From Armatimonadota bacterium (GTDB lineage Bacteria; Armatimonadota; Fimbriimonadia; Fimbriimonadales; GBS-DC), in assembly GCA_013359125.1 (NCBI GenBank), contig JABWCR010000004.1, forward strand, positions 1 through 64,000: DNA of 64,000 nucleotides, written 5' to 3'. The notes below the pieces were generated by a model. It was not told the DNA's origin, ran no database searches, and worked only from the letters and a program-made list of their open reading frames with translations. The stretch's first letter is position 1. Each line of letters opens with the position of its first letter. The translations under genes and the position numbers were made by a program. Of the stretch, positions 23,371 to 42,238 are shown in pieces.

Positions 23371-25101
23371 TTGGCATTCTCTAAGTTTTTTGGGATTCTG
23401 GTTGTCGCGGCCATTGGTTTTGCCGCTTTGGACGATGCGCCGTCTCTTAACTTTTCCGCCCACAAGGCTACCGTAGTCGTCTTCTTGGGCTCCGAGTGTC
23501 CGGCTGTGCCGCGCATCGCGCCTCGACTAAACGAACTTCACGAGCAGTTTGGAAAGCAGGACGTGCAGTTTATCGCGCTCTATCCGAACGGTAGCGATAC
23601 GGCTGCGATGGTGAGAGACCATGCAAAGCGCATGGGGTTTGGCTTTGAATGCCGCATCGATCTCAAAGGTCAAGTTGCAAAGCAGCTTGGTGCGACCAAA
23701 ACGCCTGAGATCGTGGTCGTCGACGCTAAGGGGAGAAAAGTTTATCAGGGCGCCATCGACAGCGACGCCAAGGTAGCCAACCCTCAGCATCGATACGCCG
23801 AGAGGGCGATCTCCGCGGCCATCAATGGCAAGAGCATGGACCCGTCGCGAACCGAAGTGGTCGGTTGTTTCATCAAGACCGAAGCGACTGTGAATGGGAA
23901 AGAGGTCGCGACGTTCGTTGACGACATCGCCCCGATCATGTTCGAGTATTGCACCCCTTGCCATCGTCCCGGCCAGATCGGTCCGTTTCCGCTTATTAAC
24001 TACGACGATGCGAAAAAGTGGGCTCAGGAGATCGAGCACTATACGCACAATCGGACCATGCCTCCTTGGAAGCCTCAGCCCGGCCATGGCGATTTTCGGG
24101 GCGAACGGCGACTTTCGGACGCACAGTTGGCTTCGATCAAGCAATGGGTGGAAGCTGGGTGTCCTCAGGGCGATCCGTCGCACATGCCCAAGCAGCCCGA
24201 CTATCCTCAAGGATGGGAGATGGGCGTTCCTGACGTTGTGGCGCAAATGCCGCAGGCTTACGATGTGGCCGGTACGGGCACAGACGAGTATCGCTACTTT
24301 GTAATCCCGGTCGAAGCTCCAGAAAACTCCGCGATGATCGGTATCGACATTGTGCCGGGCAGTCGCGAAGTGGTCCACCATGCCAACGTCTATGTCGATG
24401 TTACGGGCGCGGCGCGAAAGTTGGACGAGGCGGACCCGGGCGTCGGTTATTCCAATTTCGGCAGTCCTGGCTTCTTGCCGACTATGATGTTGGGTGGCTG
24501 GGTGCCGGGCATGAGGCCGATGCGACTGCATCAAGGCTATGGCGTCGTGCTGCCACGCAAGTTCGATCTTGTGCTACAGGTGCATTACTTCAAGCGCGGA
24601 CAGACGTATCGCGATCAGACCAAGGTCGGGCTCTATTTGGGCAAAGCGTCTGAAGTCAAGCCCGTACAGCTGGCCGTGCTGAGCGACACTCGATTCACGA
24701 TTCCGGCGAACGATCCGGCGTTCAAGATTCAGCGCAGTTGGACGGTGGCCAAGAAGGTCGAGTTGGTCGCTATCATGGCTCATGCGCACCTGGTTTGCAA
24801 AGACGTCAAGGTCTCGGCCAAGATGCCGAACGGCGAAGAGCGCAACCTGCTGTGGATCGACGATTACGACTTTAACTGGCAAGAGACCTACTTTTACAAG
24901 CAGCCCATGACGCTCGAGCCGGGCACCGTGGTAACCGCCAGGGGTCTCTACGACAACTCGGAGAAGAACAAGCGCAACCCCAATTCGCCTCCAAAGCCGG
25001 TAAAGTATGGGGACAAAACGACGGACGAAATGTTCTATGTCTTCTTGGCAGTAGCGGATGAGACGGCCAAAGGCTCGGGCTTCATCATAACAGGGCTATG
25101 A
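23371..25101 (+). CDS. Thioredoxin-fold, cytochrome c and copper type II monooxygenase-like fusion
   Basis: A 576-residue secreted protein. After a short hydrophobic N-terminus, residues about 28-165 are a redoxin domain (FLGSECPAVPRIAP, single Cys in the CxxC position). A cytochrome c site follows, CTPCH (194-198). The C-terminal half resembles copper type II ascorbate-dependent monooxygenases: VHHANVY (His336, His337), LQVHYF (His405) could bind CuA, and MAHAHL (His471, His473) and Met513 could bind CuB. This architecture is common in Planctomycetota and related phyla; the substrate is unknown. The TTG at 23371 has CGGAGG 6 nt upstream. The stop overlaps the start of the M1 aminopeptidase gene by ATGA. 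Confidence 0.8.
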   Translation: MAFSKFFGILVVAAIGFAALDDAPSLNFSAHKATVVVFLGSECPAVPRIAPRLNELHEQFGKQDVQFIALYPNGSDTAAMVRDHAKRMGFGFECRIDLKGQVAKQLGATKTPEIVVVDAKGRKVYQGAIDSDAKVANPQHRYAERAISAAINGKSMDPSRTEVVGCFIKTEATVNGKEVATFVDDIAPIMFEYCTPCHRPGQIGPFPLINYDDAKKWAQEIEHYTHNRTMPPWKPQPGHGDFRGERRLSDAQLASIKQWVEAGCPQGDPSHMPKQPDYPQGWEMGVPDVVAQMPQAYDVAGTGTDEYRYFVIPVEAPENSAMIGIDIVPGSREVVHHANVYVDVTGAARKLDEADPGVGYSNFGSPGFLPTMMLGGWVPGMRPMRLHQGYGVVLPRKFDLVLQVHYFKRGQTYRDQTKVGLYLGKASEVKPVQLAVLSDTRFTIPANDPAFKIQRSWTVAKKVELVAIMAHAHLVCKDVKVSAKMPNGEERNLLWIDDYDFNWQETYFYKQPMTLEPGTVVTARGLYDNSEKNKRNPNSPPKPVKYGDKTTDEMFYVFLAVADETAKGSGFIITGL

Positions 25102-27104
25102 TCGCTGAACTGCTGGCGATTGTTCTTGCTAATGGCTTGCACGAGCCTTGTTTGCGGTCAAGCGCTTCAGTTCGGCCAATCGCTGTAGTCGAGAACTTCG
25201 GCGATACCGATGTGCTGGATTACGACCTTGAGATCGAGATCGTCCCGTCGCAAGGTCGATTGATCGGTCGGAACAAGATCTTTGCCGTGTCGCAAACACA
25301 AGGCCTGGCCGAATTCACCTTTCGGCTCGACGTCAATCTTCCAATTACGGGTCTTCTGTTGGATGATCGACCGATAGGCTTTACGCGATTGAACAATTCG
25401 ACCGTGCGCGCCCACTTCGACCAGACCTATAATTCCGGGCAGAGTTTTGTGCTGGAAGTCGCTTATGACGGGCAGCCCGTCTCAGAGGGATTTGGCTCGA
25501 TCGTTTATGGGACTTATACGAGCGGCGCGCCCTATGTCTATACGCTGAGCGAGCCTTGGTATGCCTATACCTGGTGGCCGAACAAGGACGACAACACGGA
25601 CAAGGCAACATTTTCCTTTGCGGTAACGGCGCCTCAAGAGTTGACCGTTGCGGCGAACGGCCGCAGCATGGGTGTAGAGAACCTAAGCGGCAATCGCAGA
25701 AAATTCCTGTGGCGGACGGACTATCCGATGGTTCCCTATCTTTTGGCGTTCGGGGCGACGGTGTACAACACTTGGTCGCGCCCGTTCAATCATGCTGGCG
25801 GACAGATGCCGGTCGACTTCTACATCGTCCCACAAAGCGATTCTACGGGGAACCGACAAGCGTGGGAACTTTGCCTGCCGATGCTGACCACCTTTGGCCA
25901 ACTCTACGGGGAGTATCCCTTTATCGAAGAGAAGTACGGCATCTATCAATTTTCCTTTGGCGGCGGGATGGAGCACCAAACGATGACCGGCCAGGGAGGA
26001 TGGGGCGAATCGCTCACGGCGCACGAACTCGCGCATCAATGGTGGGGCGACATGATCACCTGCGCAACCTGGCACGACATCTGGCTCAACGAGGGCTTTG
26101 CCACTTATTCCGAGGCGCTTTGGCTGGAGAACAAGCCGGGGAGTTCCGGCCTTGCCGCGCTCAAGTCGGCAATGAACAGCCGCCGGCCGCAAAACGTTGG
26201 CGGGACTGTCTATCGTTACGACATCAGCACGGTCAATAGCATCTTCAGTTCCACCTATTCCTATCGCAAGGGCGGATGGGCGCTGCACATGCTTCGGGGC
26301 GTTTTGGGCGACGAGATGTTTTACCGATCGCTTGAGGCTTATCGAAAGCAGTTTCAGTATCAGTCCGTAACCACGGATCAGTTCAAGGACGTTGTGGAAG
26401 AGACAGTGGGACAGGATTTGGACTACTTTTTCAACCAGTGGATCTATGGCGGCGGCGCGCCGGCCTACGAGTGGGGCGCGGCCAACACACTGATCAACGG
26501 AAGGCGGTTTCTGCTGGTTAGAATCCGGCAAACGCAGACGAGTTACCCCTTGTTCAAGATGCCGATAGACTTCCGAGCGACCGTATCGGGCGCGCAACAG
26601 CGATGGCGGCTTTGGAACGACGCAGCGGTACAGCACTACGTCATCCCGGTTGCAGCCTCGGCTTCTAGCGCTCAGTTCGACCCGGATGCGTGGATCTTGG
26701 CGACCAACGTCAGCAATGTCTCCTATGTGAGCGGCCCGCCAACGATCGTCGCTATGAACCCTTCGCCGTTTACGGACGGCGCTACGAACGTCGATCGCAT
26801 AGAGATCAGTTTTCACACGCCTGTGAATGCCTCGGCCAACCACTTTCAGGTAATGGATGCGGCGAATCGTTCGTACGAGTTTGCTTTCGAGCACGTTCAG
26901 TCGAGCGGCTTGGTTCGGTTGAACTTCAAAGGTCCCCTCTTGCCGGGCGATTATCGTGTGGTCGTCTCGGATCAGATCACGGCTGTCAACTCCGGCCAGC
27001 GACTGGACGGCGAAATCCTCTCGCCCGATAAGAACCAAGCGCTCCCATCGGGCAACGGCCTCGCCTCCGGCAGCGCCGCGCTCCCCTTTAGAATCGTTCG
27101 GTAA
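25098..27104 (+). CDS. M1 family metallopeptidase with C-terminal Ig-like domain
   Basis: A 668-residue zinc aminopeptidase. The zinc site is HELAHQWWGD (His309, Glu310, His313) with Glu332 in LNEGFATYSEALW, and the GxMEN-like exopeptidase motif is FGGGMEHQT. The N-terminal domain is the beta-rich M1 saddle; a C-terminal extension (about 550-668) reads like a SbsA/Ig-like domain (PTIVAMNPSPFTDGATNVDR) and may hold the enzyme at the cell surface. A hydrophobic but poorly defined N-terminus may be a signal peptide. It overlaps the preceding gene by four bases, so a shared extracellular function is likely. It ends just before the TetR promoter. Confidence 0.88.
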   Translation: MIAELLAIVLANGLHEPCLRSSASVRPIAVVENFGDTDVLDYDLEIEIVPSQGRLIGRNKIFAVSQTQGLAEFTFRLDVNLPITGLLLDDRPIGFTRLNNSTVRAHFDQTYNSGQSFVLEVAYDGQPVSEGFGSIVYGTYTSGAPYVYTLSEPWYAYTWWPNKDDNTDKATFSFAVTAPQELTVAANGRSMGVENLSGNRRKFLWRTDYPMVPYLLAFGATVYNTWSRPFNHAGGQMPVDFYIVPQSDSTGNRQAWELCLPMLTTFGQLYGEYPFIEEKYGIYQFSFGGGMEHQTMTGQGGWGESLTAHELAHQWWGDMITCATWHDIWLNEGFATYSEALWLENKPGSSGLAALKSAMNSRRPQNVGGTVYRYDISTVNSIFSSTYSYRKGGWALHMLRGVLGDEMFYRSLEAYRKQFQYQSVTTDQFKDVVEETVGQDLDYFFNQWIYGGGAPAYEWGAANTLINGRRFLLVRIRQTQTSYPLFKMPIDFRATVSGAQQRWRLWNDAAVQHYVIPVAASASSAQFDPDAWILATNVSNVSYVSGPPTIVAMNPSPFTDGATNVDRIEISFHTPVNASANHFQVMDAANRSYEFAFEHVQSSGLVRLNFKGPLLPGDYRVVVSDQITAVNSGQRLDGEILSPDKNQALPSGNGLASGSAALPFRIVR

Positions 27105-27110
27105 CCCCCC

Positions 27111-27139
27111 TTGACAAACCAGTTGACCGCTGGTATAAT
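27111..27139 (+). promoter_or_regulatory. Consensus sigma-70 promoter of TetR-RND operon
   Basis: TTGACA (27111-27116) and TATAAT (27134-27139) are both perfect hexamers with a 17-nt spacer, the strongest promoter of the window. The spacer and -10 region carry operator-like palindromes listed separately, which suits a strong promoter held off by the downstream TetR protein. Transcription would start near 27146. Confidence 0.8.
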
Positions 27140-27170
27140 AGTGACCAGTGGTCGCGAATGACCCGCGGTC
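27125..27170 (+). promoter_or_regulatory. Triple palindromic operator for TetR repressor
   Basis: Three related short palindromes follow each other: GACCGCTGGT (27125-27134), GACCAGTGGTC (27143-27153) and GACCCGCGGTC (27160-27170). Their starts are 18 and 17 nt apart. The consensus is GACCNNNGGTC. The first covers the spacer and -10, the second the likely start site. Binding by the adjacent TetR protein is an inference. Confidence 0.7.
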
Positions 27171-27253
27171 TTGATATTTATATTCATAATTTTGATACTT
27201 GCCGCCTTGATTATTTGACTTTCCGTAAATCTGAGAGGTAGACTGAGAATCTG

Positions 27254-27874
27254 ATGCTGGACTGTCCAGGCCGTAGAGAGCGCAGAAGGGAGGAGACCAA
27301 GACCAAAATCGTCAATTCGGCGATGGAACTTTTGGCCGAGAAGCCCTATGATCAGATCACGGTCGAAGACATTACCGAGCGCGCCGACGTGGCCAAAGGC
27401 ACTTTCTTCCGCCATTTTCCATCCAAGGATCTTGTGCTGCTCGAATATGTGGACGCGCTTGTAGAGGAAGTCAACCTTCAGATCGAGCAAATTCTATGCG
27501 GCAACCAAGGCGAATCGGCCTGGGAGTTATTGGAGCGAATTGCCGTCCTTGTTGCCGAGCACGACGGCCGATCGAAGACTTTTGCTCGAACCTTGACCAG
27601 TATTTGTTGCACCAACGAAGAGGTTCGCCGGGCGCTGGTGTCTATGCACGACGATGCGGCTATGGGAACGGAGCAGCTCATTCTATACGGCGTACAGAAG
27701 GGCGAGTTTCGTTCGGACGTGCCGGCAAGACAGGTCGCCGAGCAGGTGATTCGCCTCTATGCGCAATGTCTGCACATATGGTGCATGAGAGAAGAGATCA
27801 CCGATCTGACGGCTCTGGTTAGGGAGACGCTTGCATTTTTCAAACCTGCAATAGATAGAGGAGAAGCGAAGTGA
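27254..27874 (+). CDS. TetR/AcrR family transcriptional repressor
   Basis: A 206-residue regulator. The N-terminal helix-turn-helix is recognisable: ETKTKIVNSAMELLAEKPYD, then VEDITERADVAKGTFFRHFP with the typical G-FF-HF recognition helix. The C-terminal all-helical region is the ligand pocket and dimer interface. It lies first in an operon with an outer-membrane channel, adaptor and RND pump, so it most likely represses its own operon and is relieved by a pump substrate. The promoter region upstream has three palindromes. The ATG at 27254 has GAGAGG at about 27233. Confidence 0.92.
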   Translation: MLDCPGRRERRREETKTKIVNSAMELLAEKPYDQITVEDITERADVAKGTFFRHFPSKDLVLLEYVDALVEEVNLQIEQILCGNQGESAWELLERIAVLVAEHDGRSKTFARTLTSICCTNEEVRRALVSMHDDAAMGTEQLILYGVQKGEFRSDVPARQVAEQVIRLYAQCLHIWCMREEITDLTALVRETLAFFKPAIDRGEAK

Positions 27875-29172
27875 GGATTCTGTCGACGATGGCGCTGGGG
27901 CTGTGCTTGGTCGCAATCTCGCTGCCGCAAGAGAAGCTAACGCTCGATCGGGCGATCGAGCTCGGTCTAAAGAATAATCGCCACTTGCTTGCCCAGGCAG
28001 AGCAAGTGAATCGGGCCAACTCCAAGATTGCCGAGGCTCGCGCAGGCGCGCTGCCGCAGGTCGACGCAACGGCCACGTACACGCGATTTGACAAGGTAGC
28101 CAAGGCGACGTTTGGTCCGCCCGACAATCCGGTAACGGTTCCGCTCGGCTCGATAGAGAACCGATCTGCCAATGTAAAGATCGAACAGATCGTCGATATC
28201 AACGGCCTGGTCAAGACGGGCCTTCGCACGGCGGACGAACTCTCTCTCGTTGCGAGGTACCGATATGAGCAGGCCAAGAGTCAGTTGATTTTGGACATTG
28301 TAACCGCCTTTAGCGACGTGCTAAGGGCTATGGCGCATGTTGAAGTTGCCGAAGAGGCCGTCAGCAATGCCAAAGAACGATTGCGCATCACAAACGCTCA
28401 GGTGGATGCCGGAATCGCCGCTCGGTTTGATGTGTTGCGGGCTGAGACTCAGGTCTCTCAGTTTGAACAACAGCGCTTGTCGGCTGTCAATGCAGTCGCG
28501 CTGGCAAAAGCCAATCTGAACACCGTGTTGGCCCGACCCGTCGCAGAACCGATCGAGCTCGATGCTAACATAGACCGACCGGCCTACCTTAAGGACCTGG
28601 CTCTCTATACCAAGCAGGCTCGAGAGAAGCGGCCAGAGGTGTTGGCGGCTGCCTCGGATGTGAAGCTTTCGAACTACAGCAAGACCATTGCGAGCGCCCA
28701 AAACAAGCCGACGCTAATTCTCAACGGTCAATGGAACTTCAACCTCAATACGGCGACGTTCAACCCGAACAAGATCAGCTTCACGGCGAACGCGATCCTC
28801 TCGGCGCCCCTGTTTGACGCCGGCATTGGGAGAGCCAAGGTTCGTCAGGCCGAAGCCGATGTGCGCGCTGCAGAACTGACTCTTCAACAAACTACCGACA
28901 TCGTTGCGCTGGAAGTCCAGTCCGCATTGCTGAACTTAGAGGACGCCGAGAAGCGGATCGCCGTTGCGCGTTCGGGCTTGGAACAAGCGGCCGAGGGTTT
29001 GCGGCTTGCAAAACTTCGATACGAGGCAGGCGTCTCTTCGCCTCTCGAGATCAGCGATGCCGAAGTTGCCTATGCCCAAGCGCGAATCAATTTGGTTACC
29101 GCAGAATTCGACTATATCGTCAGCCACGCTCGCTTGATGAAGGCGACAGGAACCAACATAGAGGGAAAATAG
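27871..29172 (+). CDS. TolC-family outer-membrane channel protein
   Basis: A 433-residue secreted protein with an N-terminal signal (MRILSTMALGLCLVAISLP) and two outer membrane efflux protein repeats. Long amphipathic coiled-coil helices are plain (KEKLTLDRAIELGLKNN, then AEARAGALPQVDATATYTRF; later RYEAGVSSPLEISDAEVAYA). It would form the trimeric duct of the tripartite efflux pump. The GTG start at 27871 overlaps the TetR stop as GTGA. Outer-membrane export implies a diderm cell envelope. Confidence 0.9.
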   Translation: MRILSTMALGLCLVAISLPQEKLTLDRAIELGLKNNRHLLAQAEQVNRANSKIAEARAGALPQVDATATYTRFDKVAKATFGPPDNPVTVPLGSIENRSANVKIEQIVDINGLVKTGLRTADELSLVARYRYEQAKSQLILDIVTAFSDVLRAMAHVEVAEEAVSNAKERLRITNAQVDAGIAARFDVLRAETQVSQFEQQRLSAVNAVALAKANLNTVLARPVAEPIELDANIDRPAYLKDLALYTKQAREKRPEVLAAASDVKLSNYSKTIASAQNKPTLILNGQWNFNLNTATFNPNKISFTANAILSAPLFDAGIGRAKVRQAEADVRAAELTLQQTTDIVALEVQSALLNLEDAEKRIAVARSGLEQAAEGLRLAKLRYEAGVSSPLEISDAEVAYAQARINLVTAEFDYIVSHARLMKATGTNIEGK

Positions 29173-29173
29173 C

Positions 29174-30622
29174 ATGAAAATGGACTATCGTCAATCGGGG
29201 CTTTTCTCAGCCGCGCTCGTTGGGCTTATTGCGCTTTCGTCGTGCAGCAAGCCAAACGCTTCGCCTGCCAAAGAAACAGGCGCGGAAGCGACGGCGATCG
29301 CTGTCGGAGTCGAAAAAATATCTGCGGGCAATCTCGAACAGACCGTGGACGTTACCGGCAATCTGATCGCGACGCAGGATGTCATTGTTTCTCCAAAGAT
29401 AGGAGGCAAGATCGAGCGGCTGCTGGTTCGGGAAGGGGACAAAGTCTCGCGCGGTCAGGTGATCGCGATTCAAGATACTTCTGATCTGTCTGCACAATTG
29501 GCGCAAGCGCAGGCGGCCGTTCGAGCGGCGGAAGCTCGGTTGGCACAGGCGAACACTCAGGCCCGAATCGAGCCCGCCATGGCCGAATCTCAAATTCAAA
29601 CTTCGCGCGCCGCTGTTTTAGCCGCAAAGGCGCGGCTCGATGCTCTTAAAGCGGGCGCAAGGCCGCAGGAGAGGGAGCAGGCGCAGAGCGCCGTCAATTC
29701 GGCAAAGGCGCAGCTAGATTGGGCGCAGACCGATTACGATTCGACCAAGCAGCTGGTGGATGCGGGCGCATTGGGCCGGACCGCCTTGATTGCCAAGAAG
29801 TCTGCCCTTGACGGGGCGCAGGCCAACTATCAGAATGCGTTGAAAGCCCTAAGTCTTGTTCAGGAAGGCCCGCGGCAAGAAGACATCGATGCCGCAGCGC
29901 AGCAGCTTCGTCAGGCAGAGGAAGCCTACAACCAATCGGTTACGGGCAGGGCGTCCGTTCAACTTCGGAACGATGAAGCGGCCGCGGCTCGCGCGACGGT
30001 CGCTCAGGCCGAGGCCAACCTCCGATATGCAAGGCAGCAATTGGACAACGCCTACGTCAAGGCGCCCTTCGATGGAGTCGTCGCCGACAAGTTGTTAGAG
30101 GCCGGCGCGATGGCCGCGGCGGGCACGCCGGTCGTACGATTGGTTACGCCTGGAAGGCTCTTTTTGGAGGCAACGGTCTCGGAAACTTTGGTCCAGCAGG
30201 TTCGTGCAGGCCAGATGGTGCGCGTCGAGGTTGATGCGCTGCCCGGCAAGGAGTTTGATGCCAGGGTCGACAAGATCTATCCGGCTGCCGACCACGCAGG
30301 TCGAAGCTTTAAGGCGCGCATTGCCTTGAGCAACGCTACGGCTGAGCTGAGGCCCGGCATGTTTGCGCGGGGCCGCATTGTCGTCCGGGAGTTTCGCAAC
30401 GTGCCGCTCACTCCCAGGTCGGCCATTGTCGAGACGGCTGGCGACGTGAGAACCTATATCGTTCGAAACGGCAAAGCCGTCGAGCGGAAGGTGCGGATCG
30501 TTTATGCCAGCAGCGACCGGGTCTATGCCGAAGGGATGCAAGTTGGAGAGAGCGTGATTACCCGAGGCGTCGATCTCATGTCGAATGGCGTTCCGGTGAA
30601 CATCGTTGGCGGACAAGAGTAA
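29174..30622 (+). CDS. RND efflux periplasmic adaptor (membrane fusion lipoprotein)
   Basis: A 482-residue adaptor subunit. The signal peptide ends in a lipobox, ALSSC (Cys about residue 25), so it is lipid anchored. The biotinyl-lipoyl halves (VSPKIGGKIERLLVREGDKV and APFDGVVADKLLEAGAMAAAGTPVVRL) flank a long Ala/Gln-rich helical hairpin (about residues 100-270), which is unusually repetitive and longer than AcrA's. Beta-barrel and membrane-proximal domains follow. It starts 1 nt after the TolC-type gene and is 16 nt upstream of the RND pump. Confidence 0.9.
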   Translation: MKMDYRQSGLFSAALVGLIALSSCSKPNASPAKETGAEATAIAVGVEKISAGNLEQTVDVTGNLIATQDVIVSPKIGGKIERLLVREGDKVSRGQVIAIQDTSDLSAQLAQAQAAVRAAEARLAQANTQARIEPAMAESQIQTSRAAVLAAKARLDALKAGARPQEREQAQSAVNSAKAQLDWAQTDYDSTKQLVDAGALGRTALIAKKSALDGAQANYQNALKALSLVQEGPRQEDIDAAAQQLRQAEEAYNQSVTGRASVQLRNDEAAAARATVAQAEANLRYARQQLDNAYVKAPFDGVVADKLLEAGAMAAAGTPVVRLVTPGRLFLEATVSETLVQQVRAGQMVRVEVDALPGKEFDARVDKIYPAADHAGRSFKARIALSNATAELRPGMFARGRIVVREFRNVPLTPRSAIVETAGDVRTYIVRNGKAVERKVRIVYASSDRVYAEGMQVGESVITRGVDLMSNGVPVNIVGGQE

Positions 30623-30638: not shown

Positions 30639-33600
30639 ATGTGGCTCACTCGAGTTGCAATCACTCGTCCGGTTACCATCACCATGTTTATGGTGGGGAT
30701 CCTGGTGTTAGGCATCTATTCGCTCGGCAAGATGAAAGTCGAGATGAACCCAAAGACCGACTTTCCCATCGTAACGGTCGCCACTAGTTATCCGGGCGCG
30801 CCGCCCGATGAGATTGAAACCCTGGTTACCAAGCCGATAGAGGACGCTGCGGGCGCTGTGAGCGGGGTCAAGTCGATCAACTCCGTGTCGCAGTACGGAC
30901 TCTCGATCGTTACCGTCGAGTTTTATTTGGGCACCGACACCAACATCGCGTTTAGCGACGTTCGAGCCAAGGTGGACGCCGCGCGCGGAGAATTGCCTCG
31001 CGAAGTCTTGCCTCCGGTGGTCAGCAAATTAGACAACAACATCCAGCCGGTGCTCTATATCTCGATGACTGGCCGGCGGTCGGCAGCCGATCTGCGAGAC
31101 TTGGCCGATAATGTGATCAAGGACCGTTTGGGCAATGTCTCGGGCGTGGCCAGCGTCGAAGTGGCCGGAGGCGAGCAGCGCGAAATCCAGATCACCGTCA
31201 ATCGCACGCGCCTTGAAGCTTACCAACTGACCATCGGAGACGTGCAAAAGGCTATCCAAGCCGCGAGCCTAAACGTTCCAGCCGGGCAGATTACGGAAGG
31301 CGCCCAGGAGTACGGGGTGCGAATGCTCGGCGAGTTTAAGAGCATCGACGAGATTCGAGATTTGAAGCTGCCATTGCAGAACAGGCGCGATCCTAACTCT
31401 CCCGGACCGGCTATCCGCCTGAAGGACGTTGCCGATGTGCGGGATACTACCGCGGAGCGTCGAGTTTATACTCGTTTGAACGGCAAGGATAACGTGGCGA
31501 TCGTTGTGCAGCAAGCCAGCGATGCCAGCGCAGTCGACGTGGCCGACGGCGTCAAAGCGGTGATTGGGGAGATTGGGCAAGAGTATCCAGACCTCCAGTT
31601 CACCTACACGCAAGACATGTCGGAGAACATCAAAGAGAGCATCTTCGATCTTCGCGTGGCGTTGTTCATGGCGGTCATTCTGGTCGTGCTGATCGTCTAT
31701 CTCTTCCTATACAATCTCCGCGGCACCTTTATCGTTTCGCTCGCCATTCCGACCTGTATTTTCGCCACCTTCATCTTGATCAACTTTCTCGGCTTCTCGA
31801 TCAACTTTATGACGATGATGGCGCTTTCGCTGGCTGTTGGAATCTTGGTCGATGACGCGATCGTCGTCTTAGAGAACACCTATCGGCACTTAACATTGGG
31901 CGAAGACCCGGTGCAAGCGGCCTATAACGGTCGAAGCGAGATCGGCATCGCAGCGATTACGATCACGCTCATCGACGTGGTGGTGTTTTTGCCCATCGCA
32001 TTCATGGGCGGCATTACCGGTCAGTTCTTCAAGTCGTTCGGAATCACGATCGCGGCGGCCACGCTCTTTTCGCTCTTTGTCTCCTTTACCATCACGCCGA
32101 TGTTGGCCAGCCGGTGGTACCGAAAGGGAGAAGGCGTCGAGGAGCCAAAGGGGTTCTTCAAGTGGTTCGATCGCAACTACCGCCGGTTCGAGCGAGGCTA
32201 TCGCAGAGTGTTGGCGTTCGCGCTCAATCATCGCTGGTTCGTGGTCTTGACGGGCAACGGCGCCTTGATCGGTTTGATGGTCGTTATTGGATGGGCCGCG
32301 GCCAACGGCAAGGACTTGTTGCCTTTCCGCTTTGCGCCCGGGCAGGATCAAGGTCAGATATCCGTGCACGTCAAACTGCCGCCGGATTCTTCCCTTGCTC
32401 AGACGGACGCGGTCGTCAAGAGAATCGAGGAAGCTGCGATGGAGTTGGACGACGCGCGCTACGTCAGCTCTCGGATCGGGAGTTCGTCCACCGGCGCTTG
32501 GGGAGCGGGCGACCGAGGCCCGCAGTTTGCCGACGTGAGCGTAACGCTCCATCACAAGAAGAGCCTGCTCGATTCGATTCTCTTTTGGCAGAAGCACGAC
32601 GAAGCCCTTCGCACGCGCCTGGACACCGACATTGCGGCGGAACTGCGCGAAAAGATCGGTGTGATCCCAGGCGCGCGCATCAGCGTCTCGGCCGTCAGCG
32701 GATTTGGCGGCGGATGGGGCGCGCCCATCAACATGACCCTCTCTGGAAAGGACACCGCGGCGCTTGTGCAGACCGCGGACGCCGTGAAAGCCGTCATTGC
32801 GCGGATACCGGGCATCAAAGACCCCGACCTCAGTTGGCAGTCCGGCAAGCCGGAGATCCAAGCCGCTATCGACCGAGTGAGAGCGGCGTCGCTAGGCGTC
32901 AGCTCGGCGGAGGTCGCTGGAACGTTGCGCACAGCGCTAGAAGGCAACACCGATGTCAAGTACCGCGAATTCGGGCGCGAATATCCGATCCGTATTCAGT
33001 TCCGACCGGAAGATCGCGCCGAGATCGGCCAAGTGGGCGACGTGGTTGTCTCGTATGTCGGCGGAATGCCGATTCGATTGCGCGACGTGGCTAGCATGGA
33101 CGTGGCGAGCGGGCCGACCAAGATTCAGCGCAACGACCGGCAGCGCCAGATCGGCGTGCTCGCCCAGCTTCAGCCTGGCTACTCGCCCGGAAACATGGCT
33201 GTGCAAGTACGCGAAGAGCTCAGCAAGGCCAACGTCGTTCCGCCCGGGATCGCCCTAGGCTGGGAAGGCGAGAACAAGGTCATGGCCGACGAGAGCGGCT
33301 ATATGGGCGCGGCGCTCATGCTCGCCTTCATCTTGGTCTACCTGCTGATGGCCGCTCTGTTCGAAAACATGCTCACCCCCCTCGTCATCATGTTCAGCCA
33401 GCCTCAGGCGCTGGTCGGCGCCCTGCTCGCGCTGATCATCACCGGCGTTGGTATGAATATCGTCGCCATGATCGGCATCATCATGCTGGTCGGCTTGGTG
33501 GGCAAGAACGCTATTCTGCTGGTCGATTACACCGGCACGCTAAGGGCGCGAGGCCTGCCCAGGCGCGAAGCCCTGTTGGAAGCCGGTCCGACGCGATTGA

Positions 33601-33887
33601 GACCGATCATGATGACCACTATCGCAATGGTTTTGGGCATGATGCCGATCGCGCTGGCGCTAGGACGCGGCTCGGAGTTCCGCGCGCCGCTCGGGATCGC
33701 CGTCATTGGCGGCCTGATCGTCTCGACCCTGCTGACGCTCGTTGTCATCCCGGCGACCTATACCATCCTGGACGACTTTAGCCAGTGGACAACGAGGCTG
33801 AAGAATCGCGCGCTGGGACGCACGAACGGGGAAGTCTCCTACGAATCGCTCGACGCGATCGATGAGGGGATCAAGTCGCGCGAGTAG
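30639..33887 (+). CDS. RND efflux transporter permease, HAE1/AcrB type
   Basis: A 1082-residue inner-membrane pump with 12 predicted helices and two large periplasmic loops. Evidence includes the N-terminus TRVAITRPVTITMFMVG, MNPKTDFPIVTVATSYPGA, the first TM4 proton-relay pair LVDDAIVVLEN (Asp near residues 405-406), FMGGITGQFF and the second-half MIGIIMLVGLVGKNAILLVDY. It exports drugs, bile-like compounds or other amphiphiles; the substrate cannot be told. Last gene of the TetR-regulated operon. GGGGAGG precedes the ATG at 30639. Confidence 0.95.
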   Translation: MWLTRVAITRPVTITMFMVGILVLGIYSLGKMKVEMNPKTDFPIVTVATSYPGAPPDEIETLVTKPIEDAAGAVSGVKSINSVSQYGLSIVTVEFYLGTDTNIAFSDVRAKVDAARGELPREVLPPVVSKLDNNIQPVLYISMTGRRSAADLRDLADNVIKDRLGNVSGVASVEVAGGEQREIQITVNRTRLEAYQLTIGDVQKAIQAASLNVPAGQITEGAQEYGVRMLGEFKSIDEIRDLKLPLQNRRDPNSPGPAIRLKDVADVRDTTAERRVYTRLNGKDNVAIVVQQASDASAVDVADGVKAVIGEIGQEYPDLQFTYTQDMSENIKESIFDLRVALFMAVILVVLIVYLFLYNLRGTFIVSLAIPTCIFATFILINFLGFSINFMTMMALSLAVGILVDDAIVVLENTYRHLTLGEDPVQAAYNGRSEIGIAAITITLIDVVVFLPIAFMGGITGQFFKSFGITIAAATLFSLFVSFTITPMLASRWYRKGEGVEEPKGFFKWFDRNYRRFERGYRRVLAFALNHRWFVVLTGNGALIGLMVVIGWAAANGKDLLPFRFAPGQDQGQISVHVKLPPDSSLAQTDAVVKRIEEAAMELDDARYVSSRIGSSSTGAWGAGDRGPQFADVSVTLHHKKSLLDSILFWQKHDEALRTRLDTDIAAELREKIGVIPGARISVSAVSGFGGGWGAPINMTLSGKDTAALVQTADAVKAVIARIPGIKDPDLSWQSGKPEIQAAIDRVRAASLGVSSAEVAGTLRTALEGNTDVKYREFGREYPIRIQFRPEDRAEIGQVGDVVVSYVGGMPIRLRDVASMDVASGPTKIQRNDRQRQIGVLAQLQPGYSPGNMAVQVREELSKANVVPPGIALGWEGENKVMADESGYMGAALMLAFILVYLLMAALFENMLTPLVIMFSQPQALVGALLALIITGVGMNIVAMIGIIMLVGLVGKNAILLVDYTGTLRARGLPRREALLEAGPTRLRPIMMTTIAMVLGMMPIALALGRGSEFRAPLGIAVIGGLIVSTLLTLVVIPATYTILDDFSQWTTRLKNRALGRTNGEVSYESLDAIDEGIKSRE

Positions 33888-40780: not shown

Positions 40781-42238
40781 TCAATATACCTTTCTTTCGA
40801 ACAGCGAGCGAAGTTCTTGCTGGTCTTCCTTTCGAGTCGCCAAGAGGATAGCGTCTCCCGCCTGAAGGATAGTGGATCCGCGGGGAATGTAGGAATCATC
40901 GCCGCGAACAAGCAGGACGATGAGCGCCGAACGGGGAAGATTCAGTTCGACCACCTGTTTACCAACAGCAGGAGAGTTGGGCGCCAGGGTGATTTCAAGA
41001 AGGTTCTTTTCAACTTTTTTGAGGGGGATATTGGGTGGCGAATTGTCTATGACGTCCAAGGCTTTGGCGATTGGGCCGAGCAGGGTCCCTTGAATCGCAA
41101 CGGAAGTCAAGACTACGAAGAAGACGAGGTGAAAGAGGGTCTGCGCTTCCGGCAATCCATAGGACATCGGAATGGTAGCGAGAATGATGGGTGTGGCGCC
41201 CCGGAGTCCTGTCCAGGAGACGAAGAGCTTATCGCGCTTTCGCAGGGACCTTTCGCCAAACAGGGAAACGAATACCGCAATAGGTCTAGCGACAAGGATC
41301 AGCACGCCTGACAAAATCACGCCAGCGGCCGCAACTTCTCCTAATTGTCTTGGGAAGACCTGAAGTCCAAAGATCAAGAACATCGTGATCTGCATGAACC
41401 AGGCGAGGCCTTCGTGAAACTGGACTAGACCGATTTTGTAAAGGAAATTGCGTCTTCCCATCGTGAGGCCGGTCAGGTAGACGGCCAGAAAACCGCTTCC
41501 GCCGATCGAGGCCGTTAGTCCGAACGATGTGATGACGAGAGCGGTAGTCGCCACGTAGTATAGACCGACGTACTCGAGCCTTAGGCGGTTGATCAACCAA
41601 ACGGCGGCCAGACCGACCAACGGTCCAAGAATGGCTCCGATACTCATTTGCTGAACGAAGAGAGGCACTAGTGCGAGGATGTTCGTTTCTGGCTGAAGCA
41701 TCATCTCGGTCAAGGCAATTGTCAGGAAGACTGCCATTGGATCGTTTAAGCCGGACTCAAGCTCTAGGAGAGGAGCCAGTCGTCCTTTGATACGAATGCT
41801 TCTTGCCCTTAAGACTCCAAAAACCGCCGCGGCGTCAGTCGATGCGACGATAGATCCGATGAGAAGTCCTTCGACGGGCGAGATGTTGAGCAGGTAGACG
41901 GCAGAGAAACCAACCAGCGCGGCGGTGATGACAACGCCTAAAGTGGCAAGCGATAAACCATGAGCTAGGATTGGCCTAACCGACTTCCAGTCTGTCTCAA
42001 GGCCGCCTGAGAACAGAATAATGCACAGGGCTATCGTGCCCACTGCACCAGCAAGCGGAGCGTTGTCGAAGTGGATGCCGCCTGGGCCGTCGCCACCGGC
42101 CAACATGCCCATGCCCAAGAATAGTAAGAGCGCGGGTACGCCCAATTTTGCGCTTGCCTTGCTTGCTAGCACGCCGCCAAGAATCAGGAGACCGGCTACG
42201 GCCAATCCCTGTTCTAGAGTGAATGGTAACGAAGGCAT
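40781..42238 (-). CDS. Cation/proton antiporter, NhaP2/CvrA type
   Basis: A 485-residue membrane transporter of the CPA1 group with about 12 helices. Evidence: LLILGGVLASKASAKLGVPA, GSIVASTDAAAVFGVLR, the conserved ELESGLNDPMAVFLTI motif, and FVSWTGLRGATPIILATIP. The C-terminal region (about 400-485) is a TrkA-C/RCK_C domain (KQVVELNLPRSALIVLL...PRGSTILQAGDAILLATR), which fits potassium/proton exchange regulated by a ligand. The ATG at 42238 begins MPSLPFTLEQGL. Neighbours do not reveal the cation. Confidence 0.9.
   Translation of the reverse strand: MPSLPFTLEQGLAVAGLLILGGVLASKASAKLGVPALLLFLGMGMLAGGDGPGGIHFDNAPLAGAVGTIALCIILFSGGLETDWKSVRPILAHGLSLATLGVVITAALVGFSAVYLLNISPVEGLLIGSIVASTDAAAVFGVLRARSIRIKGRLAPLLELESGLNDPMAVFLTIALTEMMLQPETNILALVPLFVQQMSIGAILGPLVGLAAVWLINRLRLEYVGLYYVATTALVITSFGLTASIGGSGFLAVYLTGLTMGRRNFLYKIGLVQFHEGLAWFMQITMFLIFGLQVFPRQLGEVAAAGVILSGVLILVARPIAVFVSLFGERSLRKRDKLFVSWTGLRGATPIILATIPMSYGLPEAQTLFHLVFFVVLTSVAIQGTLLGPIAKALDVIDNSPPNIPLKKVEKNLLEITLAPNSPAVGKQVVELNLPRSALIVLLVRGDDSYIPRGSTILQAGDAILLATRKEDQQELRSLFERKVY

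Follow-up and report, generated by a model that had tools for sequence, protein, structure and literature searches.

A consensus promoter overlaid by TetR-type operator sites ahead of a probably autorepressed efflux operon in an Armatimonadota bacterium

TetR-family repressors of the TtgR, AcrR and MtrR type act as local regulators of RND pumps, and BioQ of Corynebacterium glutamicum is a biotin regulator. The regulator considered here differs from the TtgR/AcrR/MtrR type in its low sequence similarity and in the position of its gene, which comes first in the apparent transcription unit. Self-regulation of TetR-family proteins via several operators is already known; the evenly phased array of variable copy number that we describe, which is merged with an extended -10 element, is a variant of this theme. 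A long operator for comparison is that of EthR from Mycobacterium tuberculosis, which is reported to be bound by a cooperative octamer over 55 bp (excerpt of PMC9210681, citing Engohang-Ndong 2004). Both systems combine a TetR-family repressor with a long operator, and EthR chains came first by E-value (TM about 0.5) in the comparison with the model of the regulator encoded in the window, i.e. the whole stretch of 64,000 nucleotides that was analysed. However, the EthR operator is built from a different word, repeated in both direct and inverted orientation (same excerpt), whereas three (in the extreme up to five) separate palindromes occur here, placed 17-18 bp apart inside a consensus promoter. 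Moreover, the target of EthR is ethA and not a pump (same excerpt), whereas the tetR gene of the window heads an efflux operon.

Another related case is MbdR of Azoarcus sp. CIB, an autorepressor whose own promoter P3R carries three predicted operators and gives several retarded bands (excerpt of PMC4424350). Its structure (4uds) ranks by sequence among the nearest solved ones (E 4.8e-16). The differences are an operator of the form ATAC-N10-GTAT, a weak P3R and the additional control of separate catabolic promoters, as given in the same excerpt. QacR and CprB place two dimers cooperatively on one DNA stretch, the CprB pair sitting on opposite sides without contact (excerpt of PMC4150764). In these cases a single stretch of 22-28 bp carries both dimers according to that excerpt, whereas separate sites 17-18 bp apart are found here. 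The 13-bp operator of BioQ, TGAAC-N3-GTTAC, has the same 5-N3-5 architecture as the sites described below; it differs in its word and takes one dimer per motif (excerpt of PMC9210681). Among the literature matches listed, judged by titles and abstract openings, none describes three evenly spaced TetR operators in one promoter, and none an armatimonad TetR operator.

The features of the locus are collected in Table 1. The preliminary description had called TTGACA-N17-TATAAT a perfect sigma-70 promoter, and both its sequence and its coordinates are right: the element at 27111-27139 reaches 12 of 12 in the consensus score and carries, in addition, TG ahead of the -10 hexamer. It is the window's sole exact match to TTGACA-N15-19-TATAAT, for which a mean of 0.00 was expected, and only 6 exist in the 2.82-Mb assembly. 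Three palindromes had likewise been described across this promoter, and the words GACCGCTGGT, GACCAGTGGTC and GACCCGCGGTC indeed begin at 27125, 27143 and 27160 (GACC-N3-GGT), with steps of 18 and 17 bp; in the longer form TGACC-N3-GGT they begin at 27124, 27142 and 27159. The predicted recognition word is 13 bp long and reads TGACCRNYGGTCA in most family copies, which revises the earlier shorter word. Site 1 lacks one base of the full 11-mer, as its final position lies within TATAAT. Since operator 1 and the extended -10 element share bases, a repressor on site 1 would mask bases that are read by sigma.

Table 1. Features of the promoter-operator block and the genes behind it (positions in the window)
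Feature	Position	Strand	Remark
-35 hexamer TTGACA	27111..27116	+	exact consensus
Operator 1, TGACCGCTGGTAT	27124..27136	+	in the -35/-10 spacer, overlaps the -10; 8 of 10 positions
Extended -10, TGG-TATAAT	27131..27139	+	first bases double as right half of operator 1
Operator 2, TGACCAGTGGTCG	27142..27154	+	covers the inferred start site; 9 of 10 positions
Transcription start (inferred from promoter position)	27146..27147	+	about 7 nt past the -10
Operator 3, TGACCCGCGGTCT	27159..27171	+	early leader; 9 of 10 positions
Second promoter-like site, TTGACT-N18-TAGACT	27215..27244	+	9 of 12 consensus; no operator copies
TetR-family repressor, 206 aa	27254..27874	+	PF00440, E 1.6e-14
TolC-type outer membrane efflux protein	27871..29172	+	PF02321
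RND periplasmic adaptor (membrane fusion protein)	29174..30622	+	TIGR01730 above cut-off
RND permease (AcrB-type)	30639..33887	+	PF00873, E 3.8e-266

An efflux operon had been assumed behind the promoter, and this assignment holds: tetR leads the order tetR-tolC-adaptor-RND, the genes for outer membrane factor, adaptor and permease of a tripartite RND system adjoin, and the promoter-operator block is kept upstream of the orthologues. The tetR gene reads as the first gene of an apparent single transcription unit. The gene on the upstream side, which is M1 peptidase-like, terminates at 27104, six bases short of the -35 hexamer. The same gene order was found at 12 of the 15 other family loci, including G008, in which the RND gene is cut by the contig end; G015 and G017 display only tetR-tolC and G013 only tetR before their contigs end.

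A second promoter-like site near the tetR start codon was noticed as well (Table 1). It contains the 16-mer TGAGAGGTAGACTGAG, which is identical to a stretch in the promoter of a distant homologue (L001/L059), where the 18-bp spacer is also alike. In the upstream regions of the other 15 family members, the closest match to this 16-mer has at least 4 mismatches, and G002 possesses a second promoter-like site of its own. A 13-base core of the element has one exact copy in the genome. Copies with one mismatch were discarded, given 2 further ones against 5 for the reversed control; as they are no commoner than that control, the exact copy alone is noteworthy. Directly after the tetR start codon (27257-27269) lies a perfect 13-bp palindrome, CTGGACTGTCCAG, which may be due to chance.

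The array and the single word behave differently in terms of expectation. The 11-mer GACCNNNGGTC occurs 3 times in the window against 1.04 expected, a number that is reached by 7 of 100 shuffles. The third exact copy, at 41615, carries C in place of the first T of the 13-mer and was disregarded. The preliminary description had raised the recurrence of this word at other promoters, which is not borne out: genome-wide, 51 sites stand against 48 for the reversed word, i.e. the background level, and a regulon-wide motif was rejected on this ground. In contrast, when 64-kb sequences were simulated 300 times with a first-order Markov model, the 10-mer GACCNNNGGT formed on average only 0.003 pairs per strand at distances of 16-19, and triples at such steps were seen in none of the simulated windows and once in the real one. 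The triple array, unlike the single word, is not chance. An explanation of the whole block by chance or low complexity, for which the background frequency of the single 11-mer could be quoted, is extremely improbable in view of the 0 triples in 300 simulations and the presence of the block in 16 of 16 orthologues.

This conservation was evaluated in 18 genomes of the same family, its own included. An orthologue of the regulator was found in 16 of them; the two genomes lacking it are 65 and 68% complete. The other 15 family regulators share 37-46% identity with the TetR of the window. The promoter-operator block precedes the orthologue in all 16 cases, whereby 11 of the 16 rows come from one genus (g4), so that these counts are not independent. 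The -35 hexamer is TTGACA in 15 rows and TTGACT in one, the -10 hexamer is TATAAT in 14, and the T of the TGn position is kept in 15. The spacer of 17 nt is peculiar to the window, while it measures 18 in the other 15 orthologues. Steps of 18 and then 17 bp separate the operators in 14 of the 16. One exception is G002, with steps of 19 and 17 and sites that score 8; the other is G004, which has no recognisable site 1 and instead a weak further site past site 3 (steps 17 and 17). In the opposite direction, G005 carries five operator copies with steps of 18, 17, 17 and 18. At L009 and L073 (G005), the four downstream copies have A for G in the right half-site (TGACC-N3-AGTC), a change that seems common to all four at once.

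The three sites are unequal across the family, site 2 being the most complete one; the scores that follow are based on an operator consensus that was refined partly on loci later scored. At least 8 of 10 positions are matched by site 2 in all 16 orthologues, and the full 10 in 10 of them. Site 1 attains at least 7 of 10 in 15 of 16 (not in G004); its left half is TGAC(C/T) in 15 and its right half GGTAT or GGTAC in all 16, the latter being fixed because the -10 element dictates those bases. Site 3 attains at least 7 of 10 in all 16 and never more than 9; its left half is TGAC(C/T) throughout (in G002 taken one base further on), and its right half opens with GGTT or GGTA in 13, the window being among the exceptions.

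When the upstream regions were anchored on the -10 element, the mean column information was 1.35 bits in the block (-25 to +36), against 0.27 bits in the upstream (-60 to -36) and 0.33 bits in the downstream flank (37 to 79). The signal is concentrated in the half-sites with 1.6-1.8 bits (1.76, 1.70 and 1.61 for sites 1, 2 and 3), compared to 0.96 bits for the N3 centres and 0.59 bits for the linkers. With one row per genus (6 rows) the contrast is smaller, 1.21 bits for the block versus 0.62 and 0.50 for the flanks, because a small sample raises the flank background; in both the full and the per-genus set, the half-sites exceed N3 centres and linkers. An exact operator pair was detected in 11 of the 18 family genomes and there at the tetR locus only. 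Among the seven without it, five have the block with imperfect sites and two are those in which the orthologue was not found. Beyond the family, the pair turned up once each in 6 of 273 genomes, and the reversed control once in 17 of 291; matches rarer than their control are regarded as background.

A search of the phylum at E 1e-24 yielded a homologue of the regulator in 26 of 291 genomes, comprising 16 of its own family, seven of family f13, one of f14 and two of f28. Upstream of tetR, TGAC(C/T)-N3-(A/G)GTCA is present in one or two copies at all eight f13 and f14 homologues. In six of these eight, a right half-site lies exactly 17 bp upstream of the 13-mer; of the remaining loci, one has two full sites 18 bp apart and one a single site. 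A single site is the state in f14, and one full site is also the rule in f13. A TTGAC-type promoter-like site precedes the 13-mer in 7 of the 8. All four genes are in place in the f14 genome (G116), and six of the seven f13 loci (L085, L086, L088-L091) show tetR-tolC-adaptor without an adjacent RND match, including G099/L089, whose contig stops right past the adaptor so that an RND gene could not appear; the contig of the f13 genome G107 shows tetR alone. At the two f28 homologues, the 13-mer was not found in the 283 and 350 bp read upstream, and neither a tolC nor an adaptor neighbour was seen. No such operator occurs in the upstream 260 bp of three weaker TetR matches from the same order either (G040, G042, G056). 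Counting sites with at least 9 of 10 positions at 25 loci (without the window) resulted in 27 sites in 8,000 bp upstream versus 5 in 219,518 bp elsewhere; at least one such upstream site exists at 22 of the 25, the misses being G002 and the two f28 loci. Furthermore, a pattern-based contig scan for relatives outside the phylum returned L001, a Chthonomonadaceae MAG contig that covers residues 3-181 and whose upstream sequence is the same as at the G107 locus, and three partial matches (L002-L004) of 26-68 residues.

The regulator itself contains the TetR_N helix-turn-helix (PF00440, 53.8 bits against a cut-off of 24). Its structural model, which was computed from a two-row alignment, is all-helical; the best of five models has a mean pLDDT of 71 and the other four 49-55. 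In the fold comparison, the chains of EthR and of Thermus thermophilus FadR lead by E-value with TM of about 0.5-0.6, and the modelling thus gives modest support for an all-helical TetR-like fold. By sequence profile, the FadR proteins of T. thermophilus (3ang) and Bacillus subtilis (3whb) lead among the solved structures, and TtgR and MtrR structures are also among the matches. With regard to AcrR, MtrR and other NCBIfam equivalogs, 22 models match at E 0.001 and none reaches its cut-off, the best one scoring 51.5 bits where 150 are required. Only the regulator itself was retrieved when its own genome was searched for a second relative at E 0.001. Residues 44-55, which span the predicted recognition helix, match the window at 83-92% identity in an alignment of 12 relatives (11 of the 15 from the family plus L001), compared to 23-41% for residues 66-206. 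A retained helix in an otherwise diverged protein is the pattern expected for a fixed operator together with a drifting ligand pocket. In the regulator tree, from which G010 and G017 (family) and G101 (f13) are missing and in which long branches meet, 14 family rows form a well-supported group, and so do the 12 rows that remain when the window and G005 are taken away (100/99 each). As this places the window and G005 outside the remaining family rows, the multi-site operator form probably dates back to the ancestor of the family.

With an inverted repeat that spans the promoter of the tetR unit and is conserved in orthologues, the locus has the layout of an autoregulated TetR operator. Judged from sequence conservation, TetR very probably represses its own operon through the operator sites in the promoter. 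A TetR dimer would bind each 13-bp copy and shut off the tetR-tolC-adaptor-RND unit that includes its own gene. Site 2, which lies over the start site and is more complete across the family than the other two, would be filled first; a dimer on site 1 would join cooperatively and block recognition of -35 and -10, and another one on site 3 would likewise join and block early transcription. The dimers would each be rotated by roughly 120 degrees about the helix. A ligand, probably a pump substrate, would free the dimers, the strong promoter could fire, and repressor and pump would be produced together. For the cooperative filling order, with site 2 before sites 1 and 3, the chances are in our view about even. 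That sites 1 and 3 are imperfect in 16 of 16 orthologues counts against the assumption that all three are filled simultaneously, and since sites 2 and 3 score alike in the window, the order with site 2 first is weaker for the window itself.

The preliminary description had also argued that a spacing off the helical repeat suggests dimers on different faces of the DNA, and the geometry fits. At 10.5 bp per turn, 17 bp correspond to 223 degrees, 18 bp to 257 and 35 bp to 120, which would put the three dimers on three faces near 120 degrees apart. We infer that such a placement would suit packing without clash. The fixed steps of 17-18 bp are suggestive of cooperative binding of several dimers; however, the CprB dimers sit on one DNA without mutual contact, so that a fixed spacing need not imply contact. 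A more far-reaching and tentative idea, which we consider somewhat unlikely, is that repressor dimers line up on the DNA as a one-dimensional helical array that can be extended, with one dimer every 17-18 bp and about 120 degrees, so that three of them would encircle the promoter. Its unit number would have been tuned by lineage (1, one and a half, 2, 3 and up to 5 units), with unit 1 fused into the extended -10 element.

The autorepression as such is not contested by the explanation that does without a cooperative array, which concerns the cooperative step only: site 2 alone would repress, and sites 1 and 3 would be independent auxiliaries providing avidity or reserve. Perfect copies (10 of 10) at site 2 in 10 of 16 orthologues and at sites 1 and 3 in none speak in its favour, and the single site of f14 and the mostly single full site of f13 agree with it. 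But the half-sites of sites 1 and 3 are conserved to a similar extent as those of site 2 (1.76 and 1.61 versus 1.70 bits), although those of site 1 are partly shared with the -10, and the steps of 17-18 bp stay constant even in the five-copy array and for the f13 half-sites. We regard this explanation as doubtful. Far less credit is given to a bystander role of the adjacent tetR, with the palindromes bound by another regulator, which is very unlikely, since the word accompanies this tetR in three families, was missing from the stretches read at the two f28 homologues that show no efflux neighbours and is concentrated upstream of tetR (27 sites versus 5 elsewhere).

The repeats could finally act as RNA, with sites 2 and 3 building a leader hairpin or attenuator: GGTC of site 2 is able to pair with its complement GACC in site 3, and one scan called a terminator-like stem at 27150-27170. 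The same stem scan, however, expects 0.9 such stems by chance, site 1 is conserved in spite of its position upstream of the inferred start, the linkers are poorly conserved (0.59 bits), the palindromes are retained in distant homologues, and Rfam gave no match at gathering score over 26900-27400. A role as RNA is hence highly improbable. Under the preferred reading, repression by TetR bound to the palindromes, the locus is of interest in several respects. In a phylum that is probably little studied, it represents a promoter-operator with a clear phylogenetic footprint, which names the recognition word together with the regulator that likely reads it. Related repressors preceded by one to five evenly spaced operators form a natural series, which would offer a direct measure of how number and spacing affect repression and its steepness, and the strong promoter is a possible inducible part, provided that the tight gating is true.

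Two further observations concern other parts of the window. In the single protein encoded at 23371-25101, a thioredoxin/AhpC-like part is joined to a copper monooxygenase C-terminal domain. At the contig start (1-3846), the G+C content is 0.71 in the first 2-kb step and 0.65 in the second, compared to about 0.57 in most of the window, and long frames whose translations, read by eye, resemble an SNF2-type helicase and a type I-like DNA methylase are found there, which may point to a defence-type island or a foreign contig end.
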